From Multifurca ochricompacta (lineage: Eukaryota; Basidiomycota; Agaricomycetes; Russulales; Russulaceae): a DNA stretch of 64,000 nt. Shown in pieces: positions 3,399 to 57,059 of the stretch (position 1 is its first letter; every line of letters starts with the position of its first letter). Below the pieces are notes generated by a model. The model was not told the origin of the DNA and did no database searches. It saw only the letters and a program-made list of their open reading frames with translations. The stretch spans positions 1-64,000 of the forward strand of contig WTXG01000116.1 of the NCBI GenBank assembly GCA_022496185.1, given 5' to 3'. The position numbers and the translations under genes were made by a program.

Positions 3399-3806
3399 TG
3401 TTGAGATGGACCCAAAGCCACCGGATCAACCCGAGTGGCATTACCGCCATGCACGCTTGTGGCGTGCTTTGACTGATTGATAAAGGACAATCCACAAATG
3501 CTCTTTATTCTCTCTTGTGACTGTAGGACAATGGACTTAGATAGTATTGTTCTACAAACTAGGATTACACTCTCTTTTAGTATTTAAGGACATCCCTTCG
3601 TGTAGTTGTCACTTCAGTTTTAACCAACTAAACTGAAGTGAGTATTACTTATCTTATCTCTTACCTTACTTAGTTAATGCGTTACATCACACAGTTATCG
3701 CTACTAAACTAGGTAAACATAATATTATCAGTTTTAACCAACTAAACTGAATTATCGCTACTAAACTAGGTAGCGCTTATCTAACTCGCTGCTGCTCAAA
3801 TCGACA
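3399..3806 (+). mobile_element. Solo LTR, Copia-2-like, with intron and fused copy
   Basis: A 408-bp insertion with ends TGTTGAGA...AATCGACA and perfect TSD TTAGC (3394-3398 and 3807-3811). Inside it the 23-nt segment A (3615-3637) is followed by GTGAGT, a 57-nt intron-like stretch ending CACACAG, and an 18-nt segment B (3695-3712). After a short GT...AG spacer the same A and B are fused without the intron (3729-3769). The A segment is an inverted repeat (CAGTTT...AAACTG). The layout equals that of the Copia-1, Copia-2 and Copia-3 LTRs although the sequences of A and B differ. Confidence 0.85.
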
Positions 3807-4588: not shown

Positions 4589-5096
4589 TGTTGACACAGG
4601 ATGTGTCTGGAGATGCTTCAGGCATCTAAGGTTCGCTTCAGCTGTAGATTAGATTAGATTAGATTTCGGAGTATCGGACTTTTTATGTTATCTTTATTAC
4701 ATTTCTTTCTCACCTTACTCAGCTGATTAGTGATGGACTTAGTAATGCGCAGTAAGCATGTGATATCTCTTTGGCCAATGGCCTTTATCCCTCTCTGTTA
4801 TTTGTCTGGCACTTGTGGACTTATTCCCAGTGTGCACAGACCATTTCCCCTGGCCCCCATGGGTATATAAGGGTGTCTGTTTCGTCTCTTTCACTTCAGA
4901 GTTTCTTCAACCTCTGAAGTGTAAGTCTTACTATACTTCCTACTTTCCTTTGACTAACGTCTCTTGTAGATACTTGTCTTTCTAGGTCAGTAGTATAGTT
5001 AATATAGAGTTTCTTCAACCTCTGAAGTATACTTGTCTTTCTAGCCTCACTGCTACTAACCACAGTCAGTATAACCAGCAGCATGATTGTTTGACA
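4589..5096 (+). mobile_element. 3' LTR of Copia-1 copy a
   Basis: A 508-bp LTR with ends TGTTGACACAGG...TGTTTGACA after the polypurine tract. TATA box (gtatataag near 4862) is followed by hairpin segment A (4898-4920), an intron-like stretch with donor GTAAGT, branch GACTAAC and acceptor CTTGTAG (4921-4969), micro-exon B (4970-4985), a GT...AG spacer, and the exactly fused A-B at 5006-5044. Downstream a second branch-like and acceptor-like motif (ctactaaccacag) precedes tcagta. Confidence 0.9.
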
Positions 5097-5157: not shown

Positions 5158-5961
5158 TCATAAGTGGAACTCTGCGATAAGGGCTGGGGAAAAGATGTTC
5201 CCAGCAGGTTCCCACAAGTTGTCAGAGTCTGGGAATCCTTTCCACTTAATCAGGTAATGTAGCTTGTGCCCTTGGCCCCTTTGTGTTGAGTCTAGAATGT
5301 GCTCCACTTCCCATTCCGCTTCTCCATTGATAAGGTCAGGTGGGGGTCTTGGGAAGTTCTCCCCATGAATGAAGGTTTCCTTGTACAGGGTCAGGAGTCT
5401 GGCATGGAAGACAGGATGGATCTTCCATTTGGGTGGTAGTTGGAGTTCATATGATATGTCTGACAGCTTCCTTTTGATCTGGAAGGGTCTGTGATGTTGG
5501 GGCACCAGCTTGGTTGTGGGATGGGATGTGTGAATATTTTTTCCTTTGAGCCAGACCCAGTCATTGGTCTGATAAGGTGTGAACGTGCTTGGCTGTGTAG
5601 ATAAGAGCTGTTGGGCCTTTATTAAATTTTCATTGGCCAATTGTCATAACTCCTTCCATTGGCCTATCCATTGAGCTACTGATGGAACATTCATGGGTTT
5701 GTCCATCCATGTGGTGCAGGGAGTCCATCCCATGATCAAGGAGAAGGGAGTGGCTTTCATCATTCCATTGGGCCATGAATTATGAGCAAACTCTGCAGTG
5801 GGAAGCCACTCTGCCCAGTCGTCTTGTTGTCCATTACACCAGAACCAAAGATACTGCTCCAGCCATTGATTCATTTGCTCTGACTGTCCATCTGTCTGTG
5901 GGTGGTATGCAGTGGATATGTTCTGTGTGATATCTAATGTTTTGCACAAAGCTTTGGTGAA
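5158..5961 (-). pseudogene. Gypsy-B copy a integrase C-terminus with chromodomain
   Basis: Reads leftward from the last part of the integrase core (TAYHPQTDGQSE, with the catalytic Glu region) through the GPY-like C-terminal domain into a chromodomain (EWEVEHILDS...LIKWKGFPDSDNLWEPA). Chromodomains of this group usually direct integration to marked chromatin. One in-frame TGA at 5644-5646 splits the frame; the corresponding codon would be CGA, fitting C-to-T decay at CpG. The upstream part is lost at the LTR junction at 5961/5962. Confidence 0.85.
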
Positions 5962-6458
5962 TGTGATAAACAGGCATGTGCACGCAGTAATACTGACTGT
6001 TGGAGTGTTAGTGTGTAAGGCTAGAACAAGTTATACTTCAGAGGAGAAGAAAACTCTATATTACTATACTACACACCTAGAACAAGTTATCTACAAGAGA
6101 CGGTTAGTTATAGGTAAAATAGTAAGTAGAGAGTGGGACTTACACTTCAGAGGAGAAGAAAACTCTGAAGTGTAAGAGACAAAACAGACACCCTTATATA
6201 CTACTCAAGGGATGGTCTGTGCGCAATGGAATACGCTAGAATGTACTACTGAGAGACAAAGGCCATTGGCCAGTGAGATATCACATGCTACACAGGATTA
6301 CTAAGGTACATCAGTCAGCTGCTGCGCATCGCGAGAAAGTAAGTAATAATGATATGGTAAAAAGTCCGAAACTCCGAATCAATATCTAATCTAATCTTGC
6401 ACAGCTTAGACCCTAACCTAGATGCCTGAAGCACCTCAAGACACATACCATGTCAACA
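5962..6458 (-). mobile_element. Copia-1-type LTR at a deletion junction
   Basis: A 497-bp reverse-strand LTR (TGTTGACATGG...TTTATCACA in its own sense). It has the A / intron / B / fused A-B layout: A at 6144-6166, intron with GTAAGT donor and CTTGTAG acceptor at 6091-6143, B at 6077-6090, fused copy at 6021-6057. The flanks are GTGAA on the left and CAAAG on the right, so there is no TSD. The Gypsy-B sequences on its two sides are about 3 kb apart in the complete copy. This fits recombination between two LTRs inserted at different places. Confidence 0.85.
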
Positions 6459-10579: not shown

Positions 10580-11083
10580 TGTTGAACACAGAAGATGTTC
10601 AGTGATGCTTCAGGCATCAGGTGATTAGATTAGCTACTTTGTAGATAAGATTAGATACCGGAGTTTCGGACTTTTTACATTATCATTATTACTTTCTTTC
10701 TCACATTCCGCAGTAGCTGACTGATACACCATATAACATGTGATTTCTGTAATAGCCAATGGCCTTATGCCCTCTTGTTTATTGTTTGGACTTTGTCCGG
10801 CACTTGTGGACTTATTCCCAGTGCACAGACCATCCCTTGAGAAGTATATAAGGGTGTCTGTTTTGTCTCCTACACTTCAGAGTTCTTCTAACATCTGAAG
10901 TGTAAGTTCCATTCCTTTACTATCTACTTTACTATTAGACTAATGTTCTTATATAGAACTTTCTTCATCTAGGTCAGTAGTATAGTTAATATAGAGTTCT
11001 TCTAACATCTGAAGTAACTTTCTTCGTCTAGCCTTATAAGCTAACCACTACAGTCAGTATGCTGCGCACATGCCTGTTTCACA
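10580..11083 (+). mobile_element. Solo LTR, Copia-1 type
   Basis: A 504-bp solo LTR with perfect TSD CAGAA (10575-10579 and 11084-11088). TATA gtatataag near 10844; A at 10879-10901, intron-like 10902-10956 (GTAAGT donor, GACTAAT branch, TATATAG acceptor), B at 10957-10972, fused A-B at 10993-11031. The fused B differs from the first B at one base, CATC against CGTC, a CpG transition. Confidence 0.92.
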
Positions 11084-13116
11084 CAGAAAACTTCATTAAT
11101 TACAAAATGGTTATCAAACATCGACTTCTGACAAAATGACTCACAATCCCCAAGAAGCTATGCAATGCCAATGGAACACCTAACACTACTGGCAACATTA
11201 ACCAATACATTGATCTGGACATAATTACAAACAACAAACTCAAACAACATCAATTTTATATTGCATCAATTGGAACCAACCAAATGATCTTAGGTTATCC
11301 ATGGCTCACTGCCAGCAATCCATGCATAGATTGGGCACAAGGGCACCTCATGCAGTCAATCCAACTCAGTGTGCCCAGGGAATACATTAAGCAATTAAAT
11401 ATAGCCCAAGAACTGGCAATTAAGGCAAAAAATGATCTGGAGCGCCCTTGGGATCAGATAGTTCCCCAGGAATATCATTGACATCAAAAGGTGTTCAGTG
11501 ACCAAGATGCTCAATGATTCCCTGAAGCAAGACCCTGGGATCATTGGATCAAATTAAAACCAGGAGCACCTGCAACACTGGACTGTAAGATATACCCACT
11601 AGGGCCAGGGGAACAAGATGCACTAAATAGGTTCTTAGAAGAACACTTACAGAAGGGGTACATCAGCAAGTCTAAATCACCATATGCATCCCCATTCTTT
11701 TTTATTAAGAAGAAGGACAGGAAGCTGAGACCAGTCCAGGACTACTGCAAGCTCAACGAGTGGACAGTTCAAAATACATATCCCCTACTGCTAATCCCAG
11801 AGCTAATAGATCGAGTCCGCAGCAGCACCCTGTTCATGAAGATGGATGTCTGCTGGGGGTATAACAATATCTGCATAGTTCCAGAAGACCAATGGAAGGC
11901 AGCCTTCAAGACAAACTGTGGCCTGTACAAGCCTAATGTTATGTTCTTTGGCTTAACAAACTCCCCAGCAACATTCCAGACTATGATGAACACAGAATTT
12001 AGAGAGGAACTAAATGAATGAGACAAAACTGGCAATGCTTGGTTCACTGTGTATATGGATGATATTCTCATCCATACTGATCATGATCTCTGAAATCATC
12101 AATCTAAAGTCCACCACATCCTCAATAAACTCAATAAGTTAGATCTATATCTTAAGCCGGAAAAATGCACCTTCAAGCAGACACACATAGAATACCTCGG
12201 ACTTATTTTGGAAGCGAACCAAGTACATATGGATCCAATCAAGGTGGAAGGAGTCACTACCTGGAAGGTACCTACAACTGTGAAAGAGATCCAATCATTC
12301 TTAGGATTTTGCCAATTCTATCATCAGTTCATTCAAGGTTTTAGTAAGATCACAGCCCTGTTGAACACACTCACAAGTGCAAAACATCAGTGGAAGTGGA
12401 CTGCAACAGAGCAAGAAGCATTTGATACCCTCAAACAATGGGTCACCTCTCAACCAGTGTTAATGCAACCGAACTTCAAAGAACCATTCATTGTAGATGC
12501 AGATGCATCGGGATACACACTTGGGGCCACCCTCAGTCAAAAGGATCCAGAAGGACGACTCCACCCAATTGCCTACCTATCAAAGACTCTGGATGCAATG
12601 CAGCAAAACTGGGATGTCTATGATCATGAACTGTTTGCAATCATTATCGCCTTTAGATCTTGGCACCAATATCTTCTGGGTGCTAAGCATAAGGTCCAAG
12701 TGTGCACAGATCATAATAACCTCCAATACTTCAAGCAACCACAGAAACTAAACCACCAACAAGCTAGGTGGCTTCAAGAGCTTGCTGATTTTGATTTTAC
12801 ACTCAAACACATTCCAGGGAAGCTTCATACCGTTGCAGACATGCTCTCACATCAACCAGATGCAGACCACAGCACAGAAGATAATGAGGAAGTTACAGTG
12901 TTACCAACAGAATTATTTATCAAGACATTGCAATCAGAGAAGCAACCTTTTCTGGCCACCCTCCCCAAGCAACATGAGATCCTCCAATGTTATCATGATC
13001 ACATCCTAGCAGGACATCCAGGCATCAACAAAACCACACAAGGAGTCCAACATGAATATGAAGGGAATGATCTAAAAGAATTTGTATGCAATTACATCAA
13101 AGGATGTTGTAATGGG
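11084..13116 (+). pseudogene. Gypsy-A protease, reverse transcriptase, RNase H and integrase N-terminus
   Basis: After the protease tail (QMILGYPWLTASNP, ending by 11340) come the reverse transcriptase core (KSPYASPFFFIKKKD, FMKMDVCWGYNNI, MFFGLTNSPATFQ, catalytic VYMDDILIH), the connection region (FLGFCQFYHQFI), RNase H (DADASGYTLGATLSQ, YDHELFAIIIAFRSW, CTDHNNLQYF) and the H...H...C-x2-C finger of integrase (AGHPGINKTTQ, YIKGCCNGC). Several TGA stops (for example at 11479, 12019 and 12091) interrupt the frame. RNase H and the following region are open over 12208-13116. Cut by a Gypsy-C LTR within the integrase finger. Confidence 0.85.
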
Positions 13117-13762
13117 TGCTTCTATCCCGCGCTTGCTATGTAGATTAGATAAGATGTAGAGATCATGGTAAAACTTAGAGGTGAAAATATCCTAGTCGGA
13201 AAGCTGCCCAGAACACGGAGATTAATGCACACGTAAGGCTTGAAGCAGTCAGAGGACTCTGCCTTGCTTATGCAGCAAGAATAGACCTATATTGAACTTT
13301 GCTAAGAGCCTACAGCCCCAAGAGGACAAGATCAGCTGGGCCTGAGTAAATACAGATATAAAGCGCACCTACAGCCCCAAGAGGACAAGATGGGGTCTGC
13401 AGCATGCTACAGGGTGTCTTTAAATACGTTCTAGTACTATCCTATGAAATACCAAAGCTGATCAAGTGTGCGATGTAAATCTAAGTAGTTATCAGTGGCT
13501 TACTTTTCTAAGTACCCTGACACATCTTGTTTACTAATGCGCGATCATTTCTGCCGGTCTGGCATTATCTAAAATACATACTAGACTACTTTAGATCACT
13601 CTATAATCAAATCATCAATTTGTATTACTCAAACAATGGCCACGTGTATCTATCAGTGTCCATTGCTGCATAGGGCAGCGACTACTTTGCATCACATGGA
13701 CTGGGTCAGATCGGTCTGAACTCCTCCTTATCTTATCTAAGTCTAAGAAGGTCGACTTTGCA
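13117..13762 (-). mobile_element. Gypsy-C LTR without matching TSD
   Basis: A 646-bp reverse-strand LTR, TGCTTCTATCC...GACTTTGCA on the + strand. Its left end matches (inverted) the LTR end at 57566-57595. It has a TATA-like ctttaaatacg on the reverse strand followed by two copies of the hairpin segment (around ctacagccccaagagg, near 13311 and 13370). Flanks are ATGGG and AGACA, so there is no TSD. A C-x2-C finger motif is encoded on both sides, so the flanks probably come from two different insertions joined by recombination. Confidence 0.7.
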
Positions 13763-14820
13763 AGACACACAATCGCGTGATGCCCTCAGGATGGTTTTCA
13801 ATCAGTCCGGGATGGCAAAAATGCGCATCCAGGACAGATGTGCCAAGTGTCAAGAGAATAAGCCAAAGCTTATGAAGAAGGCGCCAACTTTTTCACTTGA
13901 CATACCAGCTACAGTTGGTCCGTTTCAATACATTGCTATGGATCTAATTATGGATCTCCCACTGTCTGGAAAATATGACACAGTATTGACCATTGTAGAT
14001 CAAGGATGCTCAAAGGCCACCCAGTTTATACCCTGCACCAAAGAGATTACTGGAGAGGGTATAGCTACCCTCTACTACTGCCACCTCTTCCCATTCTTTG
14101 GAATCCCACAGTGGATCATTTCAGATTGTGATCCATGTTTCATGTCACACTTCTTGTGCGCACTTGCAAAAACTCTCCAGATTCAACAAAACTTGTCTAC
14201 AGCATTTCACCCACAAATGGATGGTTCTAGTGAGCACATGAATCTTTGGCTAGAACAATATCTCCAACTTTGGATAAGCAATGATCAACATAAATGGGTA
14301 GAGTACTTGCCATTAGCTGAATATGTACACAATTCATGGCCACACAACAAGACAAAGCTCTCCCCACACACACTAATCCATGGCATACAGTTTGACTGGA
14401 AAGCAGAAATTGCTGACACCAGTGTACCACAGGTTGACAAACAATTACACAAACTACACAATGTGTGCTCGTGCATGGAGGATGCATTCAAACGACCAGC
14501 AGCCCAACTGACCCACCCACAATTAGCAATTGGATCACAAGTCTGGCTGGAAGGGAAGCACCTCAAAATACATTTCCCCTCCTCAAAATTAGCCCCTCGT
14601 CGATATGGACCTTTCACAGTCCTGACCTGTATTTCACCAGTGGCTTATCGACTAGCCCTACTGCCTCACATGAAGATCCATGATACTTTCCACATTGACC
14701 TCTTAACACCTTATTGAGAGACCGATGCCCATGGCCCCAACTACACAAGACCTCTGCCTGATCTCATTAACCAGGAGGAAGAATATGAAATTGATGCTAT
14801 TTTAAATCACCACACTTATG
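13763..14820 (+). pseudogene. Gypsy-A integrase core and chromodomain first half
   Basis: Encodes the second half of the integrase finger (DRCAKCQENKP), then the DDE core: MDLIMDLPLSGKYD, IISDCDPCFMSHF and HPQMDGSSEHMNLWLEQYL. The usual ISDRDPRF reads with Cys at both Arg positions, the result expected from C-to-T at CpG. The GPF-like C-terminal domain (VWLEGKHL, RRYGPFTVL, FHIDLLTPY) follows, then TGA at the expected CGA, and the start of a chromodomain ([14 protein letters not shown]) cut by the hAT insertion. Confidence 0.85.
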
Positions 14821-16625: not shown

Positions 16626-17029
16626 TGTCGGAAATGGATCAATATGGCCAGGTCGGATCAATCGCTAAGTGTGCAGTACTAACAAGCAAGTTGTGTCTTG
16701 TGCAGTAGCACTAGGACTGTGTTTCATCTTCCTGTGAATACCTTGATACCTTACTTGATTAGACACAATCCTTTATTGTCTCAGTTACTATAAGCACACT
16801 CTTTTACAGTATTTAAAGATGCTCTCACTGTACGGTTCACTTCAGTTCTGACCATCATAACTGAAGTGAGTATTCTGTTATCTTATCTTTACCTATATAG
16901 CTAACGCACACTAGTTATAACTACCATTCTAGGTAAAGACTAATCAATATACAGTTCTGACCATCATAACTGAATTATAACTACCATTCTAGGTAGTTTG
17001 GATTATCTAACCTCAGGCTGCGTTCTTTA
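16626..17029 (+). mobile_element. 5' LTR of Copia-2
   Basis: 404 bp, TGTCGGAAATGG...GCGTTCTTTA; the 3' end is TTTA rather than the usual CA, and the 3' LTR ends the same way. TATA-like gtatttaaag near 16808. A at 16843-16865, intron-like 16866-16914 (GTGAGT donor, GCTAACG branch, CACTAG acceptor), B at 16915-16932, spacer gtaaagactaat...cag, fused A-B at 16952-16992 identical to the predicted splice product. Confidence 0.93.
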
Positions 17030-20040: not shown

Positions 20041-21530
20041 CTCCTTTCCTTTTCAGGACAATGGTGAGCCGTCCATTCGTTCTGATCAACCTAAGGCCCT
20101 GGAGGGGCCACTGGCCATTACATTCCCTATGGCTGTCCCTATGCAAACTCAAGGGGAGGTCGATCTGCCAAGGACGCCATCCCCTGTTGCCACACAAACC
20201 CCAAGTTCTGGTAATACAGTCTGGGCTACCCACCTTCACGCCCTGCAATGCAAGAGCCTCCGCCCCGCGCGCCGCGCAACTGGTTTCTCCAGACTCAGCG
20301 GACCGTTGCCCCCACTTTGGAGGACATGCCCCCTCAGAGACTGCGAGAGAATCCTTGCAGGAATCCACGTTACTTTGGTGATGATAATGCCGAGTTAGGT
20401 GAGGATGGGCAACTCGGGCATTGTGCTCTGCTTGCGGCAGCTGCATATAGTGATCCGCTCACATATCAGGAGGCGATGAAGTCAGACTATGCTAGCGACT
20501 GGCAGGACGCATGCCAATATGAAATGGATGCACTAGCCAAGAATGGAACTTGGACACTGGTGGACTTACCAGCCAATCGGAAGGCTGTGAAGTCCAAGTG
20601 GGTTTTCAAGCGCAAAGCCAATGGACGCTTTCGCGCACGCTTAGTTGCTAAGGGATTCATGCAAATTCAAGGTATTGATTATGATGAAACATTTTCTCCA
20701 GTAGCCCGGTTCGAGTCTTTGAGACTGCTGCTAGCATTGGCCGCGCTAGAGGATTGGGAGATCCATCAAATGGATGTCAAGTCGGCACTCCTGAATGGAC
20801 TACTGGATGAGGAAATCTATATGGAGCAACCAGAGGGTTTCATCACATCGGGCCAGACGAATAAGGTATGCCTACTGAAAAAGGCAATTTACGGACTCAA
20901 ACAAGCCTCACGCGCATGGAACTTGCAATTCCATGGAGTTCTATTGGAGCTCAGCTTCACGCACACTTTCTCTGATGCCGGGGTATATGTGCGTCGTTGT
21001 CAAGATGGGGAGGGTACAGCAATCATAATCCTCTATGTCAACGACATCACTATCTTAGGCGATACTCTCAAAGAGGTTAACCAGATCAAGGGGATCTTAT
21101 CTAAGCGCTATGAAATGACAGATCTAGGTGAGATCAACTCATATCTTGGAGTCCAGATCACACGCAACAGATCTATCAAGCATCTGGAAATTGATCAATC
21201 ACAGTACATTGGAGAGATTGTTGCACGCTTTGGGATGGCAGATGTGAACCCCGCATGCACACCACTCCCTGCTGGGGCAGATGTCCACCTGGTAAAGCAC
21301 ACTGAACAGGCTACTCAAACAGAAATCACATATTACCAACAAATTATTGGGAGCCTTCTGTACATGCAAATTGGGACTCGCCCTGACATATCTTTTGCTG
21401 TAGCGCATCTTGCGCAGTATGCAGCAAATCCTTCGCCACAACACCTGCGACTTGCCAAATATGTGCTGGCTTATCTAAGGAGCACAGCCAACCTTAGGCT
21501 TCGCTACGATGGAGCGCGTGGAGAGGGACT
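20041..21530 (+). pseudogene. Copia-2 reverse transcriptase
   Basis: Reverse transcriptase core with NGTWTLVDLPANRKAVKSKW, RLVAKGFMQIQGIDYDETF, HQMDVKSALLNGLLDEEIY and GLKQASRAWN. The catalytic motif reads ILYVNDITILG instead of YVDD (GAC to AAC), which should abolish polymerase activity. There is a frame change between about 20248 and 20400, with a Pro-rich linker in a second frame. The gene is cut at 21530 by the Copia-1 element; the RNase H continues at 30157. Confidence 0.88.
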
Positions 21531-22035
21531 TGTTGAACACAGAAGATGTTCAGTGATGCTTCAGGCATCAGGTGATTAGATTAGCTACTTGTAGATTAGA
21601 TTAGATACCGAAGTTTCGGACTTTTTACATTATCATTATTACTTTCTTTCTCACATTCCGCAGTAGCTGACTGATGCACCATGTAACATGTGATTTCTGT
21701 AATGGCCAATGGCCTTTCTCCCTCATGTTTATTGTTTGGACTTTGTCCGGCACTTGTGGACTTATTCCCAGTGCACAGACCATCCCTTGGAATTGTATAT
21801 AAGGGTGTCTGTTTCGTCTCTTACACTTCAGAGTTTCTTCTACCTCTGAAGTGTAAGTCCGCTCTCTTACTTACTATTATACCTTGAGACTAACGCTCCT
21901 TGTAGTAACTTGTCTTTGTCTAGGTCAGTAGTATAGTAATATAGAGTTTCTTCTACCTCTGAAGTTAACTTGTCTTTGTCTAGCCTAAACCACTAACTTC
22001 ACAGTCAGTATGCTGCGCCTCATGCCTATTCAACA
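21531..22035 (+). mobile_element. 5' LTR of Copia-1 copy b
   Basis: 505 bp, TGTTGAACACAG...TATTCAACA, with inverted termini. TATA box gtatataag near 21795, about 30 bp before the hairpin segment A (21830-21852). Then an intron-like stretch of 53 nt (21853-21905: GTAAGT donor, GACTAAC branch, CTTGTAG acceptor), B (21906-21923), a 19-nt spacer, and fused A-B (21943-21983) identical to the 41-nt predicted splice product. Confidence 0.95.
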
Positions 22036-22050
22036 GGTTATGGGCCCTGG
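22036..22050 (+). other. Primer-binding site, half-tRNA type (Copia-1 copy b)
   Basis: ggttatgggccctgg immediately after the LTR, the same as in Copia-2. The complement resembles the anticodon arm of initiator Met tRNA. Confidence 0.7.
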
Positions 22051-24552
22051 GCACTCTTTACTGATCTGTATCCTCTTTTGATCAGTCCAACCTTTCTTCA
22101 AGCTCACTGCTTCAAGACTTCTTTGTTCCCAATCACAGTCACAGTGAGCTTCGATTTCATCTTCTCTTGCCCTTAACTGTCCACAAGGTGGTGCGCTTTA
22201 TGTGCCCACCTTGATCTGTCTGGCTAGTCCCTCAGGGGATTCTTGCAAGAGGTGATGAGGGACCCTAAGCAGGTGAAACACCTTGAGTTCCTCATGTGTG
22301 CTCTAAGTAAATAGTATTCTTAGTTGTAGCTGGGTTTTCGTCCCATCCATAGTCTTAGTAGGCCACTTGCCCAGAAGGCTTGGGGCTATAGGTTCAGTCA
22401 ATGCTTGGCTCGATCCATAAGCCAGGTTTAGCGACCTGCAGGTAGAGTTTAGGGTCTAGAACAAGGCATGGGTAGTCACTCCCATGACGCTTGGGCTCGA
22501 TACAAGTAGGCTTGAACTACTATAGTAGATACACAGTAGCTACAGTGGGTCAAAAAACCGTCCCGATGTTTGCACCATTTCTAGTATTCACTCTATAGCA
22601 CCTCAGCATTTAGGAATCTGGTTATGGTGTGGCTGTATGTCTGAAAGCCCTGCTTCCTGGCTACCATGCCCAATTTGGATCAAAGACATTGGCCATGATA
22701 TAAGCATTTTATGATCAAATCAAATCAATCAATCATCGGGACGGTTTTTTGACCCACATTTTTAATCCACTATCTGCCCAATTACTCCTTTTTTTCACCC
22801 CTTTTTGCCTTGGTAACTCCTTGAATCCTTTTAGTCATCCTTTCTATAACCTTTTGCCATCATTCTGGTGCATTTTATTCCACTCCTCCACCACCCTCTC
22901 CACAACTCAGGTACCCCCTTGACTGGTTAAGAACCTTCTTCAGATCCACCCAGAGGTGTCCAATGGGGCTAATATTTCAAGAGATTGGGCTATCCATACC
23001 AGGCTTCAATATTCCTGTCTTAAAACTGCTGGCTTGCCTTCTTGGAATTGTGTTTTGGGTCATTGTCCTGCTGAAACATGGTTTCACCCTCCACCATTTC
23101 CAACTTTTCAAACCTTTCCACCACTCCGCCATCCAAAATATCACAGTACTGGCATGGATTCATGATCCCCTAAACCCCTGTAAGCATTCCTAGTCCATTC
23201 CACCCATACAAGACCAATACCATAAGTTCTTCCTCCTCCATGCTTGACTGTCAGGGTGGTGGTTCTGTCAGAGAGTGGTTACCATGAAAATTGGACAGTG
23301 GATGACTGGAAAAGGATCTTGTGGTCAGGTGAGACTATAATGAACAGAATTGGTTCAGACAGAAGGAGCTACACTTGGAAAAATAAGGGAGAACCACCCT
23401 CTGACAGAACCACCACCCTGACAGTCAAGCATGGAGGAGGAAGAACTTATGGTATTGGTCTTGTATGGGGTGGAATGGACTAGGAATGCTTACAGGGGTT
23501 TAGGGGATCATGAATCCATGCCAGTACTGTGATATTTTGGATGGCGGAGTGGTGGAAAGGTTTGAAAAGTTGGAAATGGTGGAGGGTGAAACCATGTTTC
23601 AGCAGGACAATGACCCAAAACACAATTCCAAGAAGGCAAGCCAGCAGTTTTAAGACAGGAATATTGAAGCCTGGTATGGATAGCCCAATCTCTTGAAATA
23701 TTAGCCCCATTGGACACCTCTGGGTGGATCTGAAGAAGGTTCTTAACCAGTCAAGGGGTACCTGAGTTGTGGGAGAGGGTGGTGGAGGAGTGGAATAAAA
23801 ATGCACCAGAATGATGGCAAAAGGTTATAGAAAGGATGACTAAAAGGATTCAAGGAGTTACCAAGGCAAAAGGGGTGAAAAAAGGAGTAATTGGGCAGAT
23901 AGTGGATTAAAAATGTGGGTCAAAAACCGTCCCGATGATTGATTGATTTGATTTGATCATAAAATGCTTATATCATGGCCAATGTCTTTGATCCAAATTG
24001 GGCATGGTAGCCAGGAAGCAGGGCTTTCAGACATACAGCCACACCATAACCAGATTCCTAAATGCTGAGGTGCTATAGAGTGAATACTAGAAATGGTGCA
24101 AACATCGGGACGGTTTTTTGACCCACTGTAAAAGGTTTTGTCTCTGGGCAGAAGTATTTGCTGCTGTAATTGGGGGTCCGCCCCAACCAGAGGAAACCTG
24201 ATAGTCTACTATAGTCATGGCCCCAATCATCTAGGGCTTAATCATGGACTCCACCACCAGCACTAGAGGAAGGGCTCTACACCCTTTGTCTCTAGTGGAA
24301 CTTGCGGTTGGCTCCTCCATGACATGACTCCCCATCTATTTACACAATGTCCCCCTGATGTGGGCTTAGGACTTGTTGTAGATGGCACTAGACAGTCTAC
24401 TATACTACTTAGAAGTCACACATCAGAGGCAGGATTTTTTTAAGTTCTGAAGCATAGTGCCACAGATTGGACAGGCCCTCTTAAATGAGACCTGGACAAC
24501 TGGTTCTAATTGCTCCTTGGAACCAGGATCAAACCTTTTTAAAATCATCTCA
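22051..24552 (+). other. Long Copia-1 leader, interrupted by a Tc1 foldback
   Basis: About 900 bp of leader (excluding the foldback at 22543-24128) before the gag ATG. No gene is seen in it. Copy c has the same leader on the reverse strand (55631-56539) without the foldback; that empty site, cagtagcta followed by gagggttttg, confirms the TA insertion point. Confidence 0.7.
22543..24128. mobile_element. Tc1-type foldback element with transposase C-terminal arms
   Basis: A 1586-bp palindrome with TA TSD (22541-22542 and 24129-24130). Arms of about 730 bp (22543-23273 and 23399-24128) are inverted copies around a unique centre of about 125 bp. The ends read CAGTGGGTCAAAAAACCGTC. Each arm begins with a module of about 215 bp that is itself bounded by inverted repeats (catcgggacggttttttgac at its inner end). 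The right arm read on + encodes a broken C-terminal part of a Tc1-family transposase (WTVDDWKRILWSGETIMNR, GSDRRSYTWKNKGEP, SFKTGILKPG, IGHLWVDLKKVLNQS) with several stops. Confidence 0.9.
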
Positions 24553-26588
24553 ATGTCTTCCATCGTCTTCCCTCCCACTTTCAAGTTCGATAAACTTGAT
24601 GGCTCAAACTGGCAGCAATGGTTGGTGTCCTTCACTGCCTTGCTGAGGATAAATGGAATGAAGAGGCATATCACTCATGATGCCCCTGAATTCCTGAATC
24701 CGCCCAAGCCAGAAGATGGTGAAAAGGATGATGAGTACGCCAAACGCTTCGCACAATGGTCAGAGCCCATGTACCTAGAGTGGAACAGAGTGGAGGAAGT
24801 CCTTATGGGAGTTCTGGTGATGGTAACATTGCCAGAAACATACTCCCAAATTGCCTCTGACAGAACTTACCCCTCTGTCAATGCCAAGTATGAGCGATTC
24901 GAATCGCTATACGGCTCAGTAGGTAGCATGGCCACCTACAATCTGTGGTGCTCAGTTTCATCCTTCCATTTGGAGGAAGGCAAACAATTTAGGCCCCAGT
25001 TGCAGTGTGTGTTGGATGCGAGGAGTACTCTTAAAGAGAATGGGATGGAGATCTCTGATCTCCAGATGAGCTTCATTTTGCTCCAATCCCTACCTCCATC
25101 CTACAATGCCATTGCTGGCTCTATCCTGGCATCAGGTCCTCCTGACCGCCTTTCCCCTCAGGACCTTGTACAAAGGTTCTTAAACGAGGAAAGCCGACTT
25201 GCCAGCCCTGCAGGAAGTGGTGTTGGGGCTGCCCTTAACAAGGCAGCCCATGTCAATAAAAATAAAAACAAAAAACAAACAAATTTCACGCCACAACCTG
25301 CAGGTGCATCATTGTCCAATGATGTCACCTGCTTCTATTGCCAGAAGCCAGGCCACAAGGCAAATGAATGTTGGCAAAGGAAACAGGACAGAGCCAATGC
25401 TGATGCAGGCAAAAAGGGCAACAAGAGGAAGGGGCAAGGCCCCAGTGTACAAAATAACTCCACACAAATAGCTACCGTAGTTAATGGTAGTGGCAGAATA
25501 CAGGAGGTGCATGAGACACCTCGTATTTCACTTTATACTTTGACCGAGCATACGCAACAAGTTGATGATGGCAGCAATCCTTGGATGATGGACAGTGGAG
25601 CCACCACCCACTTTACACCATACTTAGATGATTTCTCTGAGTATTTCCCACACAAGGGACATCAGGTGACAATTGGTGATGGATCCATAGTCCAAGTCGA
25701 AGGAACAGGCAAAGTCATACTCAGAACTCGAAACAATTATGAGTTAGAGTTAAACAATGTCTTTTATATGCCTGGCAGTGAAAGAATACTGTCAACAAGC
25801 TGCATCACAGACAAAGGTGGCTCAGTGGAATTTTCTCCATCTGAGGTCAAAATAAAGTACAATAATACAATTATAGTGGAAGGTGTCAAGGCTATGGGAC
25901 TCTATTGGGTCTTTGGGAAAACTATGCAGAATCTAAATGCTGCTTCCCACAAATCTGCATCAAGTAGCCTTGATACCTGGCACTTACGCATGGGTCATAT
26001 GTCAAAAGAGGCCCTCAAAAGACATGCTCCTAAGGCTGTAAAAGGTCTTAGTATAGATAATAGCCAAGTGGAAGACAAGCCATGTTACGGCTGTGAAATG
26101 GGAAAATCACACCGTCTTCCATTCCCTCCCTCTCAAAAGAGAGCTTCAGCACCCTTGGAAGTCATTCATAGTGACCTAGTTGGTCCTTTACAATGTACTT
26201 CAATTCAAGGGAACCTATATTTCACCACTTTCATAGACAACTTTAGCAGGACAGCTCTAGTTGTTGCTATGAAAGCTAAAAGTGACTTTACATCAGTCTT
26301 CTGTAATATTAAGGCATTCTTGGAAAATAAAACAGACAAGAAAATAAAGACCTTACATACAGACTGAGGTGGCAAATTTGTCAATAGGGAGCTGAAGTTG
26401 ATACTTGAGCAGGCTGGCATAGAGCACAAATTGACGATGCCATATTCCCCACAACAGAATGGAAGGGCTGAAAGGTTCAACAGAACCATCATGGAAAAGG
26501 CAACCAGTATGCTGCATCATGCTGGTCTTTCCCTTGGTTTCTGGGAATGTGCAGTGCAAACAGCCTGTCACATATACAATAGAACGCC
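24553..26588 (+). pseudogene. Copia-1 copy b gag, protease and integrase
   Basis: The start is the ATG of MSSIVFPPTFKFDKLDGSNW; the open frame extends upstream but only to a non-ATG codon. In order: gag core (EQW-type DKLDGSNWQQWLVSF), zinc knuckle CFYCQKPGHKANEC, protease WMMDSGATTHFTP, GAG-pre-integrase (LDTWHLRMGHM...CYGCEMGKSH), integrase core (HSDLVGPLQ, TTFIDNFSRTALV, HTD at about 26360, SPQQNGRAERFNRTIME). A TGA replaces the expected Arg just after HTD. The Gypsy-A solo LTR cuts the integrase after IYNRT. Confidence 0.9.
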
Positions 26589-27079
26589 TGTCACAGTTAG
26601 GTGCGGAACTGTGTCGTCGTCGAACAAGAGGAAACAAGTTCAGTCAAGGTTCAAAGGTCACAGTGGATCAAGCCTAGTTCAAAGTCGATAGGGCACGCGC
26701 ATGAGATTCGAAGTCGACGGCAGAGACGCTCGGTCCTGCAGCAAGTTCAAGATGATGAAGGCTCTCCAAGTCACATCTTGGAGAGTTCAAGTGGGGTTCT
26801 AACTGGGAGGACTCAAGGATTCCGAAGCACCTTTGATTGAACACAAGAGAACAGACTTAGTCTGTCTCTCTACTCTAGTAGGTCTTTAAATACATGTAGA
26901 ACTAGCTATGTCATAGTAAATAGAAGGTTCTAGGACTATGACATAGTATCTAAATGGTTGTGCAGTAGAATGAACTAGAACTAAGGAGAATTAGGAGGGG
27001 TTAGGCCCTCAGTAAGCCAAAACACCGGTGAAACACAATGTCAAGTCATTAGTAACGTCACAGGGAGAATTCTGTCACA
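26589..27079 (-). mobile_element. Solo LTR, Gypsy-A family
   Basis: A 491-bp reverse-strand LTR (TGTCACAGTTAGG...TTCTGTCACA on +) with perfect TSD ACGCC (26584-26588 and 27080-27084). It is the reverse complement of the LTR at 1151-1651 with few differences, including the hairpin with stem CTCTCCAAG/CTTGGAGAG. It entered a Copia-1 element whose own LTRs are nearly identical, so this family was recently mobile. Confidence 0.93.
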
Positions 27080-27084
27080 ACGCC

Positions 27085-29404
27085 TATCTGCTCTAATAAG
27101 TGGAGGACACCACTTGAGCTTCTGGATGGGGACATTCCAGATGTCTCTTACTTTAAAATATTTGGCTGCTTAGCCTACTATACTGTCCCAGAGGATAAAA
27201 GACGTAAACTGGATCATAAAGCCAGGGAAACAGTCTTTGTCGGGTATGCACCCCATTCAAAAGGATATTTGCTATGGGATATGCGTACTCGATCCTTCGT
27301 ATTGTCAAGAGATGTGACATTTGATGAAGGATCCTTCCCATCCAACCTTGCCAAGGACAGCAAGGGAAAACAAAAGGAAAAAGTTACACCTTTTGTACTA
27401 GAAGTTGAGAGGCCTGTCCAGCCTCAACCAGCAGTAGCCACAGTTCCTCAGGCTCCTGAAGACAAGGAAGCCGAGGTTGAGGAACAGGAGGTAGTGGAAC
27501 CTCCTCAAATAAATCCTGAGCCTACCACACCTGACAATGAGACACACAACATAACTATCTATCAGACTCCTCCATCCCAAATTATGGAACCATCAGAACT
27601 CCCCCAGAGAACTCGTGCCAAAAGACAATCTAAAAAGAATGTTGGCAGACTTCCCCAACCAGTTTTTACTAGGGAAAGTCCACGATCTCAACAACGTGAC
27701 AGGGCTGTGCAGGAAGATCTAGATCTTGATACTGCCTGTCCCAAACGTTCACATCGCATGAATCCTCGATTTTATAATGAGGATAATGCTGAGTTTGTGC
27801 AGGGTTCTTCCAGACTTGGGCATATGGAGTTGCTAAACGCTGCAGGAGTCTCTTATAGAGACCCCCTGACTTTTCAGGAGGCAATGCAGTCTGACAACAC
27901 CAATGAATGGCTTGAGGCATGTAAATATGAAATTGATGCCTTAGATAAACTTAATGTGTGGCACCTTGAAAATCTTCCAAAAGGAAGAAAGGCAGTCAAG
28001 TCAAAATGGGTTTTTAAACTGAAACCAGATGGACGGTTTTGTGCTAGGCTCATGGCAAAAGGTTTCACCCAAATAGAAGGGGTGGACTTCGACGAAACAT
28101 TCTCTCCAGTTGCCAGATTTGAATCACTTAGATTATTACTAGCATTAGCTACGCTAGAGGATTGGGAAATCCACCAGATGGATGTCAAATCGGCATTCCT
28201 TCATGGCGATCTGGATGAAGAAATTTATATGGAGCAACCAGTTGGTTTCATTGTTGCTGGTCAAGAGTCCAAAGTTTGTAGGCTACAAAAAGCTTTATAC
28301 AGCCTCAAACAAGCCTCCCAAGCATGGAATCTTCAATTCCATGCAGTTCTTAATGAACTGGGCTTCACTCGGACGTACTCTGATGCAGGAGTATATGTGT
28401 TTCATCAAAAGGAGGAGGATGATTCACTTTATGTCATTCTCTATGTAGATGACATTACTATACTTGGATCTTCCAATGATAAGATAACGTGGCTGAAGTC
28501 ATCTCTATCTAATCGATATGAAATGACTGACTTGGGAGAAATCCAGTCCTACCTTGGAGTTAACATCACCAGGGACCGTCCTAATAAGACACTGGAAATT
28601 GACCAAGCAGCCTACGTTTTATCTATTATTGAGAAGTTTGGAATGAGGGACTCCAACCAAGTATATACTCCTCTTCCCTCTGGCGCTGATGTTCATCTGG
28701 TCAAGTTTGATGGCCAGGCATCTACTTCAGAAATAAAGAAGTACCAACAGTTGATGGGGTCTTTGCTATGGGTGCAAATTGGAAGCAGACCCGATATCAG
28801 TTTTGCTGTGGCGCGCCTTAGTCAATATGCTTCCAACCCCTCTCAAGATCACATGTGACTTGCAAAATATGTCTTAAAGTATCTCAATAGTACAAAAGAC
28901 TGCAAGTTGCGGTATTCTGGAGGGAATGGGGAGAGTGGCCTTCATGGCTTTGCAGATTCCTCATGGGGAGATCAAGAGGACTGCCACTCTACCTCAGGCT
29001 ACGTGTTTTTCCTGGCAAATGGTGCCATTTCATGGTGTTCCAGAAAGCAGAAAACAGTAGCACAGTCCACCACTGAAGCTGAATATATGAGCCTCTCTGA
29101 GGCTGCAAATCAGGCAGCGTGGTATAGGACCTTTATGGAGGAATTAGGGTATGAGGTATCCTCCCCTATACTACTCCATTGTGACAATAAGGGTGCCGTA
29201 GATTTGGCATTAAACCCAGTCACAGGAAGGCGGTCAAAGCATATACCTATCAAGTACCATGCCATTAGGGGGTACATTGAATCGCACATAATTGAGTTAG
29301 TGCGGACCCCCACTGGTGAGATGCTGGCAGATGGCTTCACTAAGTCTCTACCAAGAGCATTGTTTGAAACCATGGTCAATGGACTTGGACTTATGCTGGA
29401 ATGA
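27085..29404 (+). pseudogene. Copia-1 copy b integrase end, reverse transcriptase and RNase H
   Basis: Continues after the solo LTR: the integrase C-terminal domain (SYFKIFGCLAYYTVPEDKRR, VFVGYAP), a Pro/Glu-rich linker with a basic stretch (RTRAKRQSKKNVG) that may serve nuclear import, then reverse transcriptase (DETFSPVARFESLRLLLA, QMDVKSAFLHGDLDEE, ILYVDDITILG) and RNase H (GFADSSWGDQED, TTEAEYMSLSEAANQ, HCDNKGAVDLAL) ending at 29404. The TGA at 28856-28858 lies where copy c has CGA. The catalytic YVDD is intact. Confidence 0.92.
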
Positions 29405-29636
29405 AAGAGCTGGAATCTGGAAACTTTGAATACCAGTTTCACTTTCCCACCATGAGCAAACTTCTCAACTTCGAGAGTGATGCAAGAGGTGTGTATGGTT
29501 TCAGTTTGCATAAGTGAATCACTGCGATATGCCTCTGAACACCATGCTCTTCTTCTTGCACTTGAGAGTTAGAGAAGTTGGATCTCTGGCAGTGTGCTCA
29601 TTCAACTCATTTCCACTTATGACCAGATGCCTTCAG

Positions 29637-29646
29637 CATGGAGGGA
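29637..29646 (+). other. Polypurine tract, Copia-1 copy b
   Basis: catggaggga directly before the 3' LTR, identical in the other Copia-1 copies. It primes plus-strand DNA synthesis. The 3' UTR (29405-29636) contains no gene. Confidence 0.8.
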
Positions 29647-30151
29647 TGTTGAACACAGAAGATGTTCGGTGATGCTTCAGGCATCAGGTGATTAGATTAG
29701 CTACTTGTAGATTAGATTAGATACCGAAGTTTCGGACTTTTTACATTATCATTATTACTTTCTTTCTCACATTCCGCAGTAGCTGACTGATGCACCATGT
29801 AACATGTGATTTCTGTAATGGCCAATGGCCTTTCTCCCTCATGTTTATTGTTTGGACTTTGTCCGGCACTTGTGGACTTATTCCCAGTGCACAGACCATC
29901 CCTTGGAATTGTATATAAGGGTGTCTGTTTCATCTCTTACACTTCAGAGTTTCTTCTACCTCTGAAGTGTAAGTCCGCTCTCTTACTTACTATTATACCT
30001 TGAGACTAACGCTCCTTGTAGTAACTTGTCTTTGTCTAGGTCAGTAGTATAGTAATATAGAGTTTCTTCTACCTCTGAAGTTAACTTGTCTTTGTCTAGC
30101 CTAAACCACTAACTTCACAGTCAGTATGCTGCGCCTCATGCCTGTTCAACA
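29647..30151 (+). mobile_element. 3' LTR of Copia-1 copy b
   Basis: 505 bp, nearly identical to the 5' LTR. A at 29946-29968, intron-like 29969-30021, B at 30022-30039, fused A-B at 30059-30099. Confidence 0.95.
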
Positions 30152-30156
30152 GGACT

Positions 30157-37251: not shown

Positions 37252-37561
37252 TGTAGCGAGCTATAAATGCGTAGCTCAGTCTTTGGAATAGAAAGACTAT
37301 ATGATTTGTTAATACCTATAAATGCGTAGCTACACAATGAATCAGTAAAGTAATAATGTAGCTGTAACACAGAGAGTACTGACCTCAGTCTTTGGAATAG
37401 AAAGACTGAGGTTTCTAACTACGCTACTGAGTCTTTATGATAAAGGAAAATTGCACAACCTGCGTGCTCTGAATATTGCGTTGCGTTGATATGGTAGTGA
37501 TCGGACTCGGGCCGCCATCTCCAGTATCAATTGATTGCGTGCTATGGCTGCACTTCCAACA
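37252..37561 (-). mobile_element. 3' LTR of Copia-3
   Basis: 310 bp, TGTAGCGAGC...CTTCCAACA on +. Reverse-strand layout: A at 37384-37407 (hairpin AGTCTTTC...), intron-like 37330-37383 (GTCAGT donor, CTGATT branch, TTGTGTAG acceptor), B at 37316-37329, spacer gtattaacaaatcatatag, fused A-B at 37261-37298, identical to the predicted splice product. The adjoining tgccccctt (37562-37570) is the reverse-strand polypurine tract. Confidence 0.93.
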
Positions 37562-43000: not shown

Positions 43001-43541
43001 CGGCATAGTCGTACCCCATCGACGTGATAAGGACAGGGTAAAATTCCTTATCCATAGTTGTGTCGCTCCAGTTAATTTTCGGTTCGAATGCCATGAGCCA
43101 GGGATACCCTAGGATGAGATCTTCGTCGCCTAGGTTGGTGACTAGGAAGCGGATGGCTTTTGTTACTTCCCCTACTTGAACGTTGAGATCAGTGTAGTGT
43201 GTAATCTTCCCTGCTCAGTTGGCAGTTCCGTCAATATTCCAGATATTCTTTTCCTGGGGAAGTGCCAGCATCCCCAATCCCATGGTTCTTGCCATTCGCA
43301 GACTAATAAAGTTGTTGGTGGTGCCTGAGTCGATCAGGATGTCATGGTCGGCCGTTTTCTGTGTAGTCTCGAAATGTACTGGTATTTTCAACGACTTGAA
43401 GCAACTAGTATACACAGAGGTTACATGTAGCGCTCGTGCCCAGGCCGATGGGTTTGAGCCAATCAAAAATCCTTCTTTGCAAATGCCTTCTCTACCAAGA
43501 TGGCTCTTACTTCTTCGCTCTCCTTCATCATATTCGCCCAT
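40016..43541 (-). pseudogene. Gypsy-B copy b pol with chromodomain
   Basis: Read leftward: protease (DILIDSGTTNNFISL, about 43215-43400), reverse transcriptase (ASPFFFIKKKDGRLRPIQDY, FSKMDVCWGYNNVR, VVYMDDILVATT), one TGA at 42126-42128 where CGA is expected, RNase H (EVDASHFANGAVLNQ, WDRELLAIVKALWHW, HTDHSNLLYW), integrase finger (HPGIANTYALAKRDYWWP...CADCQ), DDE core (MDFIIKLPTSRGFDS, ISDRDPRFTSTF, SERTNQWLKQYL), then a frame change near 40630 and near 40400, and a chromodomain (EWEVECILDS...LIKWKGFPASDNSWEPAG). A stop precedes the protease. Catalytic residues are intact, so decay is recent. Confidence 0.9.
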
Positions 43542-50101: not shown

Positions 50102-50491
50102 TGTTGAACACAGGACGTGTTCGGTGATGCTTCAGGCATCAGGAGATTAGATTAGCTACTTTGTGGACTAGATTAGATGTCAGAGTTTCAGACTATTTAC
50201 CTTATCATTATTACTTTCTTTCTCATACTCCACAGTAGCTGACTGATGTACCTTACTAATGATGTACAAGCATGTGATTCCTTACTGGCCAATGGCCTTT
50301 ATCCCTCTTGTTTATTGTCCAGCACTTGTGGACTTATTCCCAGTGCGCACAGACCATCCCTTGGAGTATATAAGGGTGTCTGTTTTGTCCTCTACACTTC
50401 AGAGTTTTCTTCATCTCTGAAGTCTAACTTGTCTTCTAGCCTAACCTGCTAACCTTACAGTCAGTATGCTGCACTCCATGCCTGTTCAACA
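50102..50491 (+). mobile_element. Short Copia-1-type solo LTR lacking the intron unit
   Basis: A 390-bp solo LTR with perfect TSD TGTGC (50097-50101 and 50492-50496). TATA gagtatataagg near 50366 and hairpin segment A are present, but A is followed directly by B (ctaacttgtcttctag) and then the ctgctaaccttacag motif. The A1, intron, B1 and spacer unit is absent. The length is about 113-115 bp less than other Copia-1 LTRs, equal to the size of that unit. Confidence 0.92.
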
Positions 50492-50500
50492 TGTGCCACA

Positions 50501-51003
50501 TGTGAAACAGGCATGTGCGCAGCATACTGACTGTGAGGTTAGCGGGTTATGCTAGACAAAGACAAGTTACTTCAGAGGTAGAAGAAACTCTATTATACTA
50601 TACTACACACCTAGACAAAGACAAGTTCTATATACAGAGTTAGTCTTAAGGTAGTGATGATAGTAGAGAGGACGACTTACACTTCAGAGGTAGAAGAAAC
50701 TCTGAAGTGTAAGAGACGAAACAGACACCCTTATATACACTTTCAAGGGATGGTCTGTGCACTGGGAATAAGTCCACAAGTGCCGGACAAAGTCCAAACA
50801 ATAAACAAGAGGGAGAAAGGCCATTGGCCATTACAGAAATCACATGTTACATGGTGTATCAGTCAGCTACTGCGGAATGTGAGAAAGAATGTAATAAAGA
50901 TAATGTAAATAGTCCGAAACTCCGGTATCTAATCTAATCTACAAAGTAGCTAATCTAATCACCTGATGCCTGAAGCATCACCGAACATCTCCTGTGTTCA
51001 ACA
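50501..51003 (-). mobile_element. 3' LTR of Copia-1 copy c
   Basis: 503 bp, TGTGAAACAGG...GTGTTCAACA on +. A at 50681-50703, intron-like 50628-50680 (GTAAGT donor, GACTAACTC branch, TATATAG acceptor), B at 50611-50627, fused A-B at 50552-50591. The reverse-strand polypurine tract catggaggga is at 51004-51013. Confidence 0.94.
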
Positions 51004-56556: not shown

Positions 56557-57059
56557 TGTGAAACAGGCATGTGCGCAGCATACTGACTGTGAGGTTAGCG
56601 GGTTATGCTAGACAAAGACAAGTTACTTCAGAGGTAGAAGAAACTCTATTATACTATACTACACACCTAGACAAAGACAAGTTCTATATACAGAGTTAGT
56701 CTTAAGGTAGTGATGATAGTAGAGAGGACGACTTACACTTCAGAGGTAGAAGAAACTCTGAAGTGTAAGAGACGAAACAGACACCCTTATATACACTTTC
56801 AAGGGATGGTCTGTGCACTGGGAATAAGTCCACAAGTGCCGGACAAAGTCCAAACAATAAACAAGAGGGAGAAAGGCCATTGGCCATTACAGAAATCACA
56901 TGTTACATGGTGTATCAGTCAGCTACTGCGGAATGTGAGAAAGAATGTAATAAAGATAATGTAAATAGTCCGAAACTCCGGTATCTAATCTAATCTACAA
57001 AGTAGCTAATCTAATCACCTGATGCCTGAAGCATCACCGAACATCTCCTGTGTTCAACA
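56557..57059 (-). mobile_element. 5' LTR of Copia-1 copy c with primer-binding site
   Basis: 503 bp, apparently identical to the 3' LTR. The adjoining gcccagggcccataacc (56540-56556) is the reverse complement of the half-tRNA primer-binding site seen in the other copies. Confidence 0.94.

Follow-up and report, generated by a model that had tools for sequence, protein, structure and literature searches.

Copia LTRs of Multifurca ochricompacta that hold one short repeat twice, split by an intron-like interval and fused, and a possible cycle of splicing and reverse transcription behind them

How could a long terminal repeat (LTR) come to contain an interval that looks like a spliceosomal intron and, a few nucleotides downstream, the two segments that flank this interval already joined to each other? 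This question is raised by the LTR at 21531-22035 of the window, that is, of the whole 64,000-nucleotide stretch of contig WTXG01000116.1 that we analysed. In this LTR, a segment A1, the interval, a segment B1 and a spacer are followed by a second, fused copy of A and B, which we call A2B2. The features of the LTR and of the element to which it belongs are as follows.

21531..22035, + strand: 5' LTR of a Ty1/Copia-type element (21531-30151), from reading of the sequence
21796..21802, + strand: TATATAA box, 34 nt upstream of position +1 of A1
21820..21833, + strand: left arm of a 14-bp hairpin, CTTACACTTC in U3 plus the AGAG of A1, spanning the predicted start site
21830..21852, + strand: A1, predicted exon 1, with the predicted transcription start at 21830, from the repeat scan
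21844..21857, + strand: right arm of the hairpin, CTCTGAAGTGTAAG, taking in most of the 5' splice site of intron 1
21853..21905, + strand: putative intron 1, 53 nt, with GTAAGT, GACTAAC (containing the branch-point-like CTAAC) and CTTGTAG
21906..21923, + strand: B1, predicted exon 2, 18 nt, followed by GT
21924..21942, + strand: spacer, 19 nt, beginning GTCAGT
21943..21983, + strand: fused copy A2B2 (A2 21943-21965, B2 21966-21983), 41 nt identical to A1 plus B1
21924..21983, + strand: candidate intron 2 (spacer, A2 and B2), 60 nt, GT...TAG
21984..22035, + strand: U5, including CTAAC..CAG, which resembles an additional 3' splice site
22036..22049, + strand: primer-binding site (PBS), GGTTATGGGCCCTG, adjoining the 5' LTR
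24457..26367, + strand: open reading frame (ORF) with gag, pre-integrase and integrase, from Pfam domain matches
27269..28858, + strand: RVT_2 reverse transcriptase ORF, downstream of the integrase, from a domain match
29647..30151, + strand: 3' LTR, with the same layout as the 5' LTR
29946-29968, 29969-30021 and 30022-30039, + strand: A1, intron and B1 of the 3' LTR
30040-30058, 30059-30081 and 30082-30099, + strand: spacer, A2 and B2 of the 3' LTR

By its domains, the element is a Ty1/Copia LTR retrotransposon, even if the integrase match within 24457..26367 (E value of 1.3e-6) lies below the curated Pfam cut-off. The target-site duplication (TSD) GGACT flanks it at 21526-21530 and 30152-30156, and its two LTRs differ at 3 of 505 positions. 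Such 5-bp duplications together with TG..CA ends are present in the elements that were read (this one and that of locus L045, with the TSD TCCCA), and some other LTRs that precede a PBS have TA ends instead. The PBS motif, presumably of the initiator-Met half-tRNA type, with a putative complementarity to part of initiator tRNA-Met, occurs 742 times in the genome, and its reversed-pattern control does not occur at all. The element appears to be nested, its 5' LTR breaking the RVT_2 ORF (20248-21579) of a Copia element of a second family, for which we use the label CAGTT, just as AGAG is used for the family of the element described here. A protein of Rhodofomes roseus, among the 120 matches listed of 3,981, is 54% identical to this interrupted ORF.

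The original prediction described the same succession of A, GTAAGT, a 53-nt intron, B, a 19-nt spacer and the fused copy at 21531-22035, and reported it at six further loci with intron lengths of 49, 53, 55, 49, 57 and 54 nt; all of this was confirmed. An exact de novo scan of both strands for split repeats (A, gap, B, spacer and fused A-B) recovered these loci with no coordinates supplied, except for 10580-11083, which it missed because B1 and B2 mismatch at one base there and which only a more tolerant scan detected. The other loci of the window with this layout are the following.

3399..3806, + strand: LTR of the CAGTT family, intron 1 at 3638-3694, 57 nt
4589..5096, + strand: LTR of the AGAG family, intron 1 at 4921-4969, 49 nt
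5962..6458, - strand: LTR of the AGAG family, intron 1 at 6091-6143, 53 nt
10580..11083, + strand: LTR of the AGAG family, intron 1 at 10902-10956, 55 nt, with B1 and B2 one base apart
16626..17029, + strand: 5' LTR of a CAGTT-family element, intron 1 at 16866-16914, 49 nt
37252..37561, - strand: LTR of a third family, in which A starts AGTCTTT, intron 1 at 37330-37383, 54 nt
50552..50703, - strand: A1..B2 block of the AGAG family, from the exact scan
56608..56759, - strand: A1..B2 block of the AGAG family, from the exact scan

Thus, the claim that the layout recurs in several families with different A and B is borne out by the AGAG, CAGTT and AGTCTTT types. In all window loci, one or more of the allowed registers puts GT..AG at the split, but the edges are not equally sharp everywhere. 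For instance, three split registers fit the AGTCTTT LTR equally well and GT..AG appears in only one of them, and in the CAGTT type the repeat runs three bases (GTA) past the AG in both copies, so that its 3' edge is not uniquely at the AG. The window also contains ORFs with Ty3/gypsy-like domains (RT_RNaseH, Integrase_H2C2 and RVT_1) at 12208-14717 and 40476-43094, and one at 59811-60593 that matches part of the sugar transporter family (Sugar_tr).

That the split and fused layout is a real property of these LTRs can be taken as practically certain. Across 59 fungal records (0.36 Mb), the tolerant scan reported 83 split repeats, 73 of them GT..AG, with overlapping records left unmerged; merging reduced these to 75 split repeats, of which 65 are GT..AG, while the other 10 comprise one decayed copy (L015) and nine cases judged to be unrelated repeat arrays. 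Arrays of this kind, judged unrelated to the LTRs, were reported by the split-repeat scan at L034, L052 and L055. As a control for the tolerant scan, with its loci from PBS scans, we used 158 unrelated viral contigs (1.40 Mb), in which none of the 16 split repeats found was GT..AG. The sampling of PBS-upstream sequence (30 PBS loci, 20 stretches, 8 loci and the window) yielded 56 distinct stretches, and the automatic scan detected the layout in 42, in a register other than GT..AG in one of them (L015). It ends 31-55 nt before the PBS in 41 of the 42 and 238 nt before it in L052. By eye, the 14 remaining stretches could be assigned as well: L036 and L053 have the layout in a slightly diverged form; L018, L044 and L050 are truncated and keep the parts from B1 to B2; L024 and L045 read U3-A-B-U5, without introns; and the PBS of L009, L023, L029, L034, L037, L040 and L055 is preceded by LTRs of other types. 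These last, L034 apart, share the PBS motif without having the split and fused layout, and in some of them a hairpin seems to lie near the predicted start site.

All of the LTR evidence comes from one genome, in which the AGAG-type A1 with its donor occurs 1481 times, the AGAG-type spacer-A2 sequence occurs 1322 times, and 1304 AGAG LTRs have normal spacing to U5. The reverse transcriptases of the AGAG and CAGTT families are 65% identical over 365 residues. Related loci were not found in viral contigs, and there was no match in plasmids.

We described the anatomy of the interval from the 65 merged GT..AG cases (fetched loci and window). A1, counted from its first AG, begins 33-35 nt after the TATA box in 62 of them, and a C precedes it in 63. 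The interval is 49-57 nt long and opens with GTAAGT (49 LTRs), GTGAGT (15) or GTCAGT (1), and a YTRAY motif lies 10-18 nt before its acceptor in every case, as CTAAC in 53. GT..AG ends, present in 65 of the 75 merged repeats, and a branch-point motif, present in all 65, are the marks of a spliceosomal intron of the U2 type, and the fused copy hints indirectly that this putative intron may be removed from RNA. B ends in TAG and is followed by GT in 62 of the 65 LTRs as counted, a mismatch having cut the match of B short in the remaining three. It should be noted that the repeat edges do not always coincide exactly with the proposed sites, because of the GTA extension of the CAGTT type (in 14 of the 65 LTRs, the edge was placed before the shared GTA) and because the repeat starts 1-3 bases before the AG in some LTRs. 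Later calculations used 61 of the 65 LTRs, an automatic cut having dropped those with a late A start, a short upstream part or a non-GT spacer, and 59 distinct LTRs were left after near-identical ones were merged; given the exclusion of non-GT spacers, GT follows B1 by construction in both subsets.

What distinguishes A and B from ordinary conserved motifs is that they are alike within each LTR and unlike between LTRs, as had been predicted. A1 equals A2 in 65 of 65 LTRs and B1 equals B2 in 61 of 65, in a split-repeat scan that favours identical copies, and small differences between copies were noticed by eye in L036, L041 and L053. Within LTRs, the distance is 0.000 between A1 and A2 and 0.004 between B1 and B2 (61 LTRs), and thus the free divergence of the fused copy from A1 and B1, the outcome that the original prediction had named as speaking against it, was not seen. 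Between LTRs, the distances reach 0.02-0.31 for A and 0.05-0.34 for B, depending on the U3 distance. The 59 distinct LTRs contain 38 A1B1 types, and only 4 edits in total separate their A1B1 from their own A2B2, against a mean of 604 and a minimum of 447 when partners are shuffled; none of 20,000 shuffles was as low as the observed value. Moreover, in 53 of the 59, the LTR's own fused copy is nearer than that of any LTR of another type. We regard it as quite probable that the fused copy is renewed from spliced RNA by strand transfer.

A cycle that could achieve this renewal starts from a terminal repeat R of which the LTR would hold two versions, one interrupted by a spliceosomal intron and the other fused. 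Transcription would begin at position +1 of A1, and both intron 1 and intron 2 (spacer, A2 and B2, with GT...TAG ends) would be removed from the 5' leader, leaving A1-B1-U5-PBS, so that the minus-strand strong-stop cDNA made on the doubly spliced leader would end in the complement of A1B1. This cDNA would anneal over the full 41-nt repeat to A2B2 in unspliced 3' LTR RNA, for which a poly(A) site after B2 is assumed; in the LTR analysed here, 21943..21983 would be the landing site. Its extension would rebuild U3-A1-intron-B1-spacer-AB-U5. The intron would survive because the 3' LTR supplies it, and the fused copy would be rewritten from A1 and B1 in each cycle.

We enumerated the products of seven leader forms and four 3' RNA forms (28 combinations, for one LTR), and only the doubly spliced leader with unspliced 3' RNA restored the parent and renewed AB by best match. 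The unspliced leader with unspliced 3' RNA restored the parent and renewed nothing, and a leader spliced at intron 1 alone predicted either an extra spacer-A-B unit or the loss of intron 1 alone, so a closed cycle needs the removal of spacer, A2 and B2 too. Genome-wide pattern searches of the AGAG type gave 0 matches for the extra unit and for intron-1-only loss; the spacer portion of one of these patterns suits 30 of the 33 LTRs sampled. Six matches were obtained with a pattern in which only the second interval is missing. Two of them look exact in the part printed, and some of the other four may be deletions of other kinds. Of the original proposal that the LTR is reverse transcribed from its spliced leader, the RNA-mediated origin by strand transfer is therefore retained, but splicing of intron 1 alone cannot close the cycle. 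The hairpin across the start site, the hot spot at the junction and the intronless LTRs, all described below, were not part of that proposal.

The candidate second intron has a length (55-64 nt) close to that of intron 1, begins with GT in 62 of 65 LTRs and ends in TAG in 62 of 65 as counted; it thus has GT..AG ends and the usual intron size, with the edge placed before the shared GTA in 14 LTRs. Its branch-point region is less regular, since 24 of 65 LTRs have no YTRAY in the range of 8-45 nt before its end, compared with 0 of 65 for intron 1. We believe that a second intron ending at B2 is somewhat favoured. A better-looking acceptor, the CTAAC..CAG motif, is recurrent in the U5 of AGAG LTRs. 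Its use in the RNA that is reverse transcribed is disfavoured, as it would delete part of U5, and perhaps this site is used in mRNA instead. The AG|GT at the end of B1 (21922-21925 in the window, and in other LTRs) resembles a recursive splice site.

A cycle of this kind could be expected to leave a trace where the cDNA changes template. In a textbook LTR, R is one contiguous sequence that extends from the start site to the poly(A) site. When a reverse transcriptase runs off its capped RNA template, any base that it adds or misreads prior to the transfer would mark the spot; nontemplated addition has reportedly been seen in one study with another reverse transcriptase. Among the AGAG LTRs of the genome, C immediately precedes A1 in 1481 cases, and a different base does so in 1. 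We compared 32 close LTR pairs (U3 distance below 3%, ungapped, with pairs that are not independent) and found that the base before A2 (-1) differs in 13 of them, -2 in 1 and the base before A1 in none, while -3 and -4 each differ in 12, partly as shifted AATAT/ATAAT forms. Within the spacer, variation in close pairs is highest just before A2, with 0.16 for the last seven bases against 0.04 for the rest. At U3 distances of 3-6% and 6-10%, -1 differs in 23% and 31%, -2 in 9% and 4%, and -3 and -4 in 47-57%; -1 is thus conspicuous as a hot spot in the closest pairs alone, and in the more distant bins it falls below -3 and -4 and stays well above -2. A hot spot before A2 is the mark that strand transfer onto the fused copy should leave, and its position at the second copy, rather than at the start-site copy, may not fit the single contiguous R of textbooks. 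Given that -1 is variable before A2 and nearly invariant before A1, the first strand transfer appears to land on A2 and not on A1.

These observations also bear on the best of the alternatives, in which renewal is RNA-mediated but intron 1 alone is spliced and the cycle is closed in another way, for example by the production and later loss of additional spacer-AB units, or by a majority of cycles on unspliced RNA, in which A1..B2 serves as an ordinary R, with a rare cDNA converting the fused copy. Such a mixed cycle is possible, as an unspliced leader on unspliced 3' RNA restores the parent, and it would accommodate the weak branch-point region of intron 2. Nevertheless, searches for its predicted products in the AGAG type gave no match beside 1,304 normally spaced LTRs, and a template that is usually unspliced would put the scar at the almost invariant U3|A1 junction and not at spacer|A2. 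We thus regard this alternative as unlikely, if worth keeping in mind. The whole two-intron model, with its spliced leader, landing on the fused copy and U3 hairpin, seems to us a likely one, and we temper both this model and the reading that splicing is required, given that a clear -1 hot spot is confined to the closest pairs and that the repeat edge of the CAGTT type has a three-base ambiguity.

Some LTRs do not have the intervals at all. The window contains one of them, given here in the same form as the other features.

50102..50491, + strand: solo LTR without introns (U3-A-B-U5), with the TSD TGTGC on both sides

It adjoins the end of another AGAG LTR in opposite orientation. In the genome, U3-A-B without intron 1 was matched at 45 AGAG-type places (25 distinct matched sequences) and 39 CAGTT-type places, for most of which the matched stretch or the position alone is known, and both intervals are absent in the intronless LTRs that were read further (50102-50491 of the window, L024 and L045). 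They fit a second annealing register of the doubly spliced cDNA. However, L045 has an intronless 5' LTR (1207-1500) and an intron-bearing 3' LTR (5948-6355) with the shared TSD TCCCA, and because only one LTR is affected and the TSD matches, its loss is best read as a deletion in DNA after insertion. In addition, no scar was found at -1 in the 23 of the 45 places that were covered, all of which are in the list with C at -1. As proof of splicing, the intronless LTRs are thus ruled out.

The apparent deletion between A1 and A2 in L045, and the closeness of the copies, are what one would expect if the layout arose at the DNA level, by an old tandem duplication of A-B, the gain of an intron by the first copy and gene conversion since then, with no spliced RNA involved. 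In three unlike families, gene conversion would need to break off close to the start site and at the splice sites while sparing the intron, and the hot spot at spacer|A2 beside the near-invariant U3|A1 would be left unexplained; we consider such an origin improbable.

If intron 1 is to leave the 5' leader and stay in the 3' LTR RNA, something must tell the two copies apart, and the hairpin across the start site is a candidate for this role. The best stem across +1, of 8-14 bp, is found in 59 of 59 distinct LTRs (a count made without a shuffled control); it pairs U3 and the first bases of A1 with the last bases of A1, extends to the donor or at least to its edge, and its arms differ in sequence between the AGAG, CAGTT and AGTCTTT families. 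The local fold energy is -17.6 kcal/mol with U3, -2.5 for the shorter piece that starts at +1 and -5.5 for the spacer with A2. When the whole region is folded, the mean unpaired value of the donor is 0.27 in the 5' RNA and 0.11 in the 3' RNA, and 0.27 when U3 is shuffled; it is freer in the 5' RNA in 46 of 59 folds, and the single AGTCTTT LTR goes in the opposite direction. Since the left arm straddles the start site, the donor of intron 1 would be buried only where U3 is transcribed, that is, in the 3' LTR, and only the 5' copy would then be spliced. On these predicted folds, we see the chances for and against a hairpin switch between the 5' and 3' copies as evenly balanced.

The inverted repeat that A carries at the predicted start site could also be taken to mean that A and B are functional motifs, such as transcription-factor or RNA-protein sites kept by selection, with an incidental resemblance to an intron. 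We find this very improbable, as nearly all of the 59 LTRs, with 38 A1B1 types among them, have a second copy that matches their own first one, whereas selection on a shared motif would keep LTRs alike rather than the copies within one LTR, and GT..AG ends and branch-point-like motifs recur. Spliceosomal introns are usually well above 20 nt, and the idea that the spacer itself, which begins with GT and is followed by the AG of A2, is the second intron was rejected on its size of about 20 nt and because that AG merely belongs to the start of A. What had been taken for an AG at the end of the spacer is the opening AG of A2, and the AG that matters is the one at the end of B2.

Returning to the two-intron cycle, we lean slightly towards its most specific form, in which the host spliceosome would assemble the repeat used in the first transfer anew in each cycle from two short exons and the hairpin at the start site would tell the 5' copy, which is spliced, from the 3' copy, which is not. 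Introns are expected to be lost from anything that is copied through RNA, and rebuilding by splicing together with reverse transcription would, if true, be an unusual route for an intron to survive such copying. One retrotransposon paper states that reverse transcription must not have access to spliced RNA (PMC3735527). The LTRs described here appear to behave in the opposite way, in well above a thousand copies and across families with reverse transcriptases that are only 65% identical. Splicing would then be required for replication instead of harmful, and the LTR would be a self-renewing record of its own splice product. If confirmed, such LTRs would be a natural record, kept in genomic DNA, of which splice sites and start sites were chosen and of the errors made in strand transfer, and they would make it possible to study how the spliceosome joins the life cycle of a retroelement.

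In the openly accessible journal papers searched, an LTR with an internal intron and a fused copy was not found. The elements resemble other fungal Ty1/Copia elements in RVT_2, in the gag and integrase domains that precede it, in their TG...CA LTRs and 5-bp TSD, and in the PBS next to the 5' LTR, and they differ from them in that the repeat is split by an intron and present again in fused form. Foamy (spuma) retroviruses have a reverse transcriptase of a different family, and the one found here is of the RVT_2 Copia type and not of the retroviral family. Nevertheless, they offer a parallel, as their major splice donor is described as lying in the LTR, upstream of the poly(A) signal, and RNA that includes bases -13 to -1 (representing the 3' LTR) folds differently at this donor from RNA that lacks them (representing the 5' LTR) (PMC3694450). 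In the LTRs here, a donor within the LTR whose folding differs between 5' and 3' RNA is a prediction only; the foamy donor controls poly(A) use, and the partial text of the same source describes no acceptor within the LTR and no stored fused copy (PMC3694450). Ogre elements (Ty3/gypsy, plants) are likewise LTR elements with an intron in their transcript, but their splicing is stated to take place between ORFs and not in the LTR (PMC3735527). Finally, BARE1 and copia are examples of the Copia superfamily whose RNAs are spliced. The BARE1 intron lies by the end of gag, and the paper argues that only unspliced transcripts replicate, whereas in the LTRs described here the spliced RNA would itself be the template (PMC3735527).
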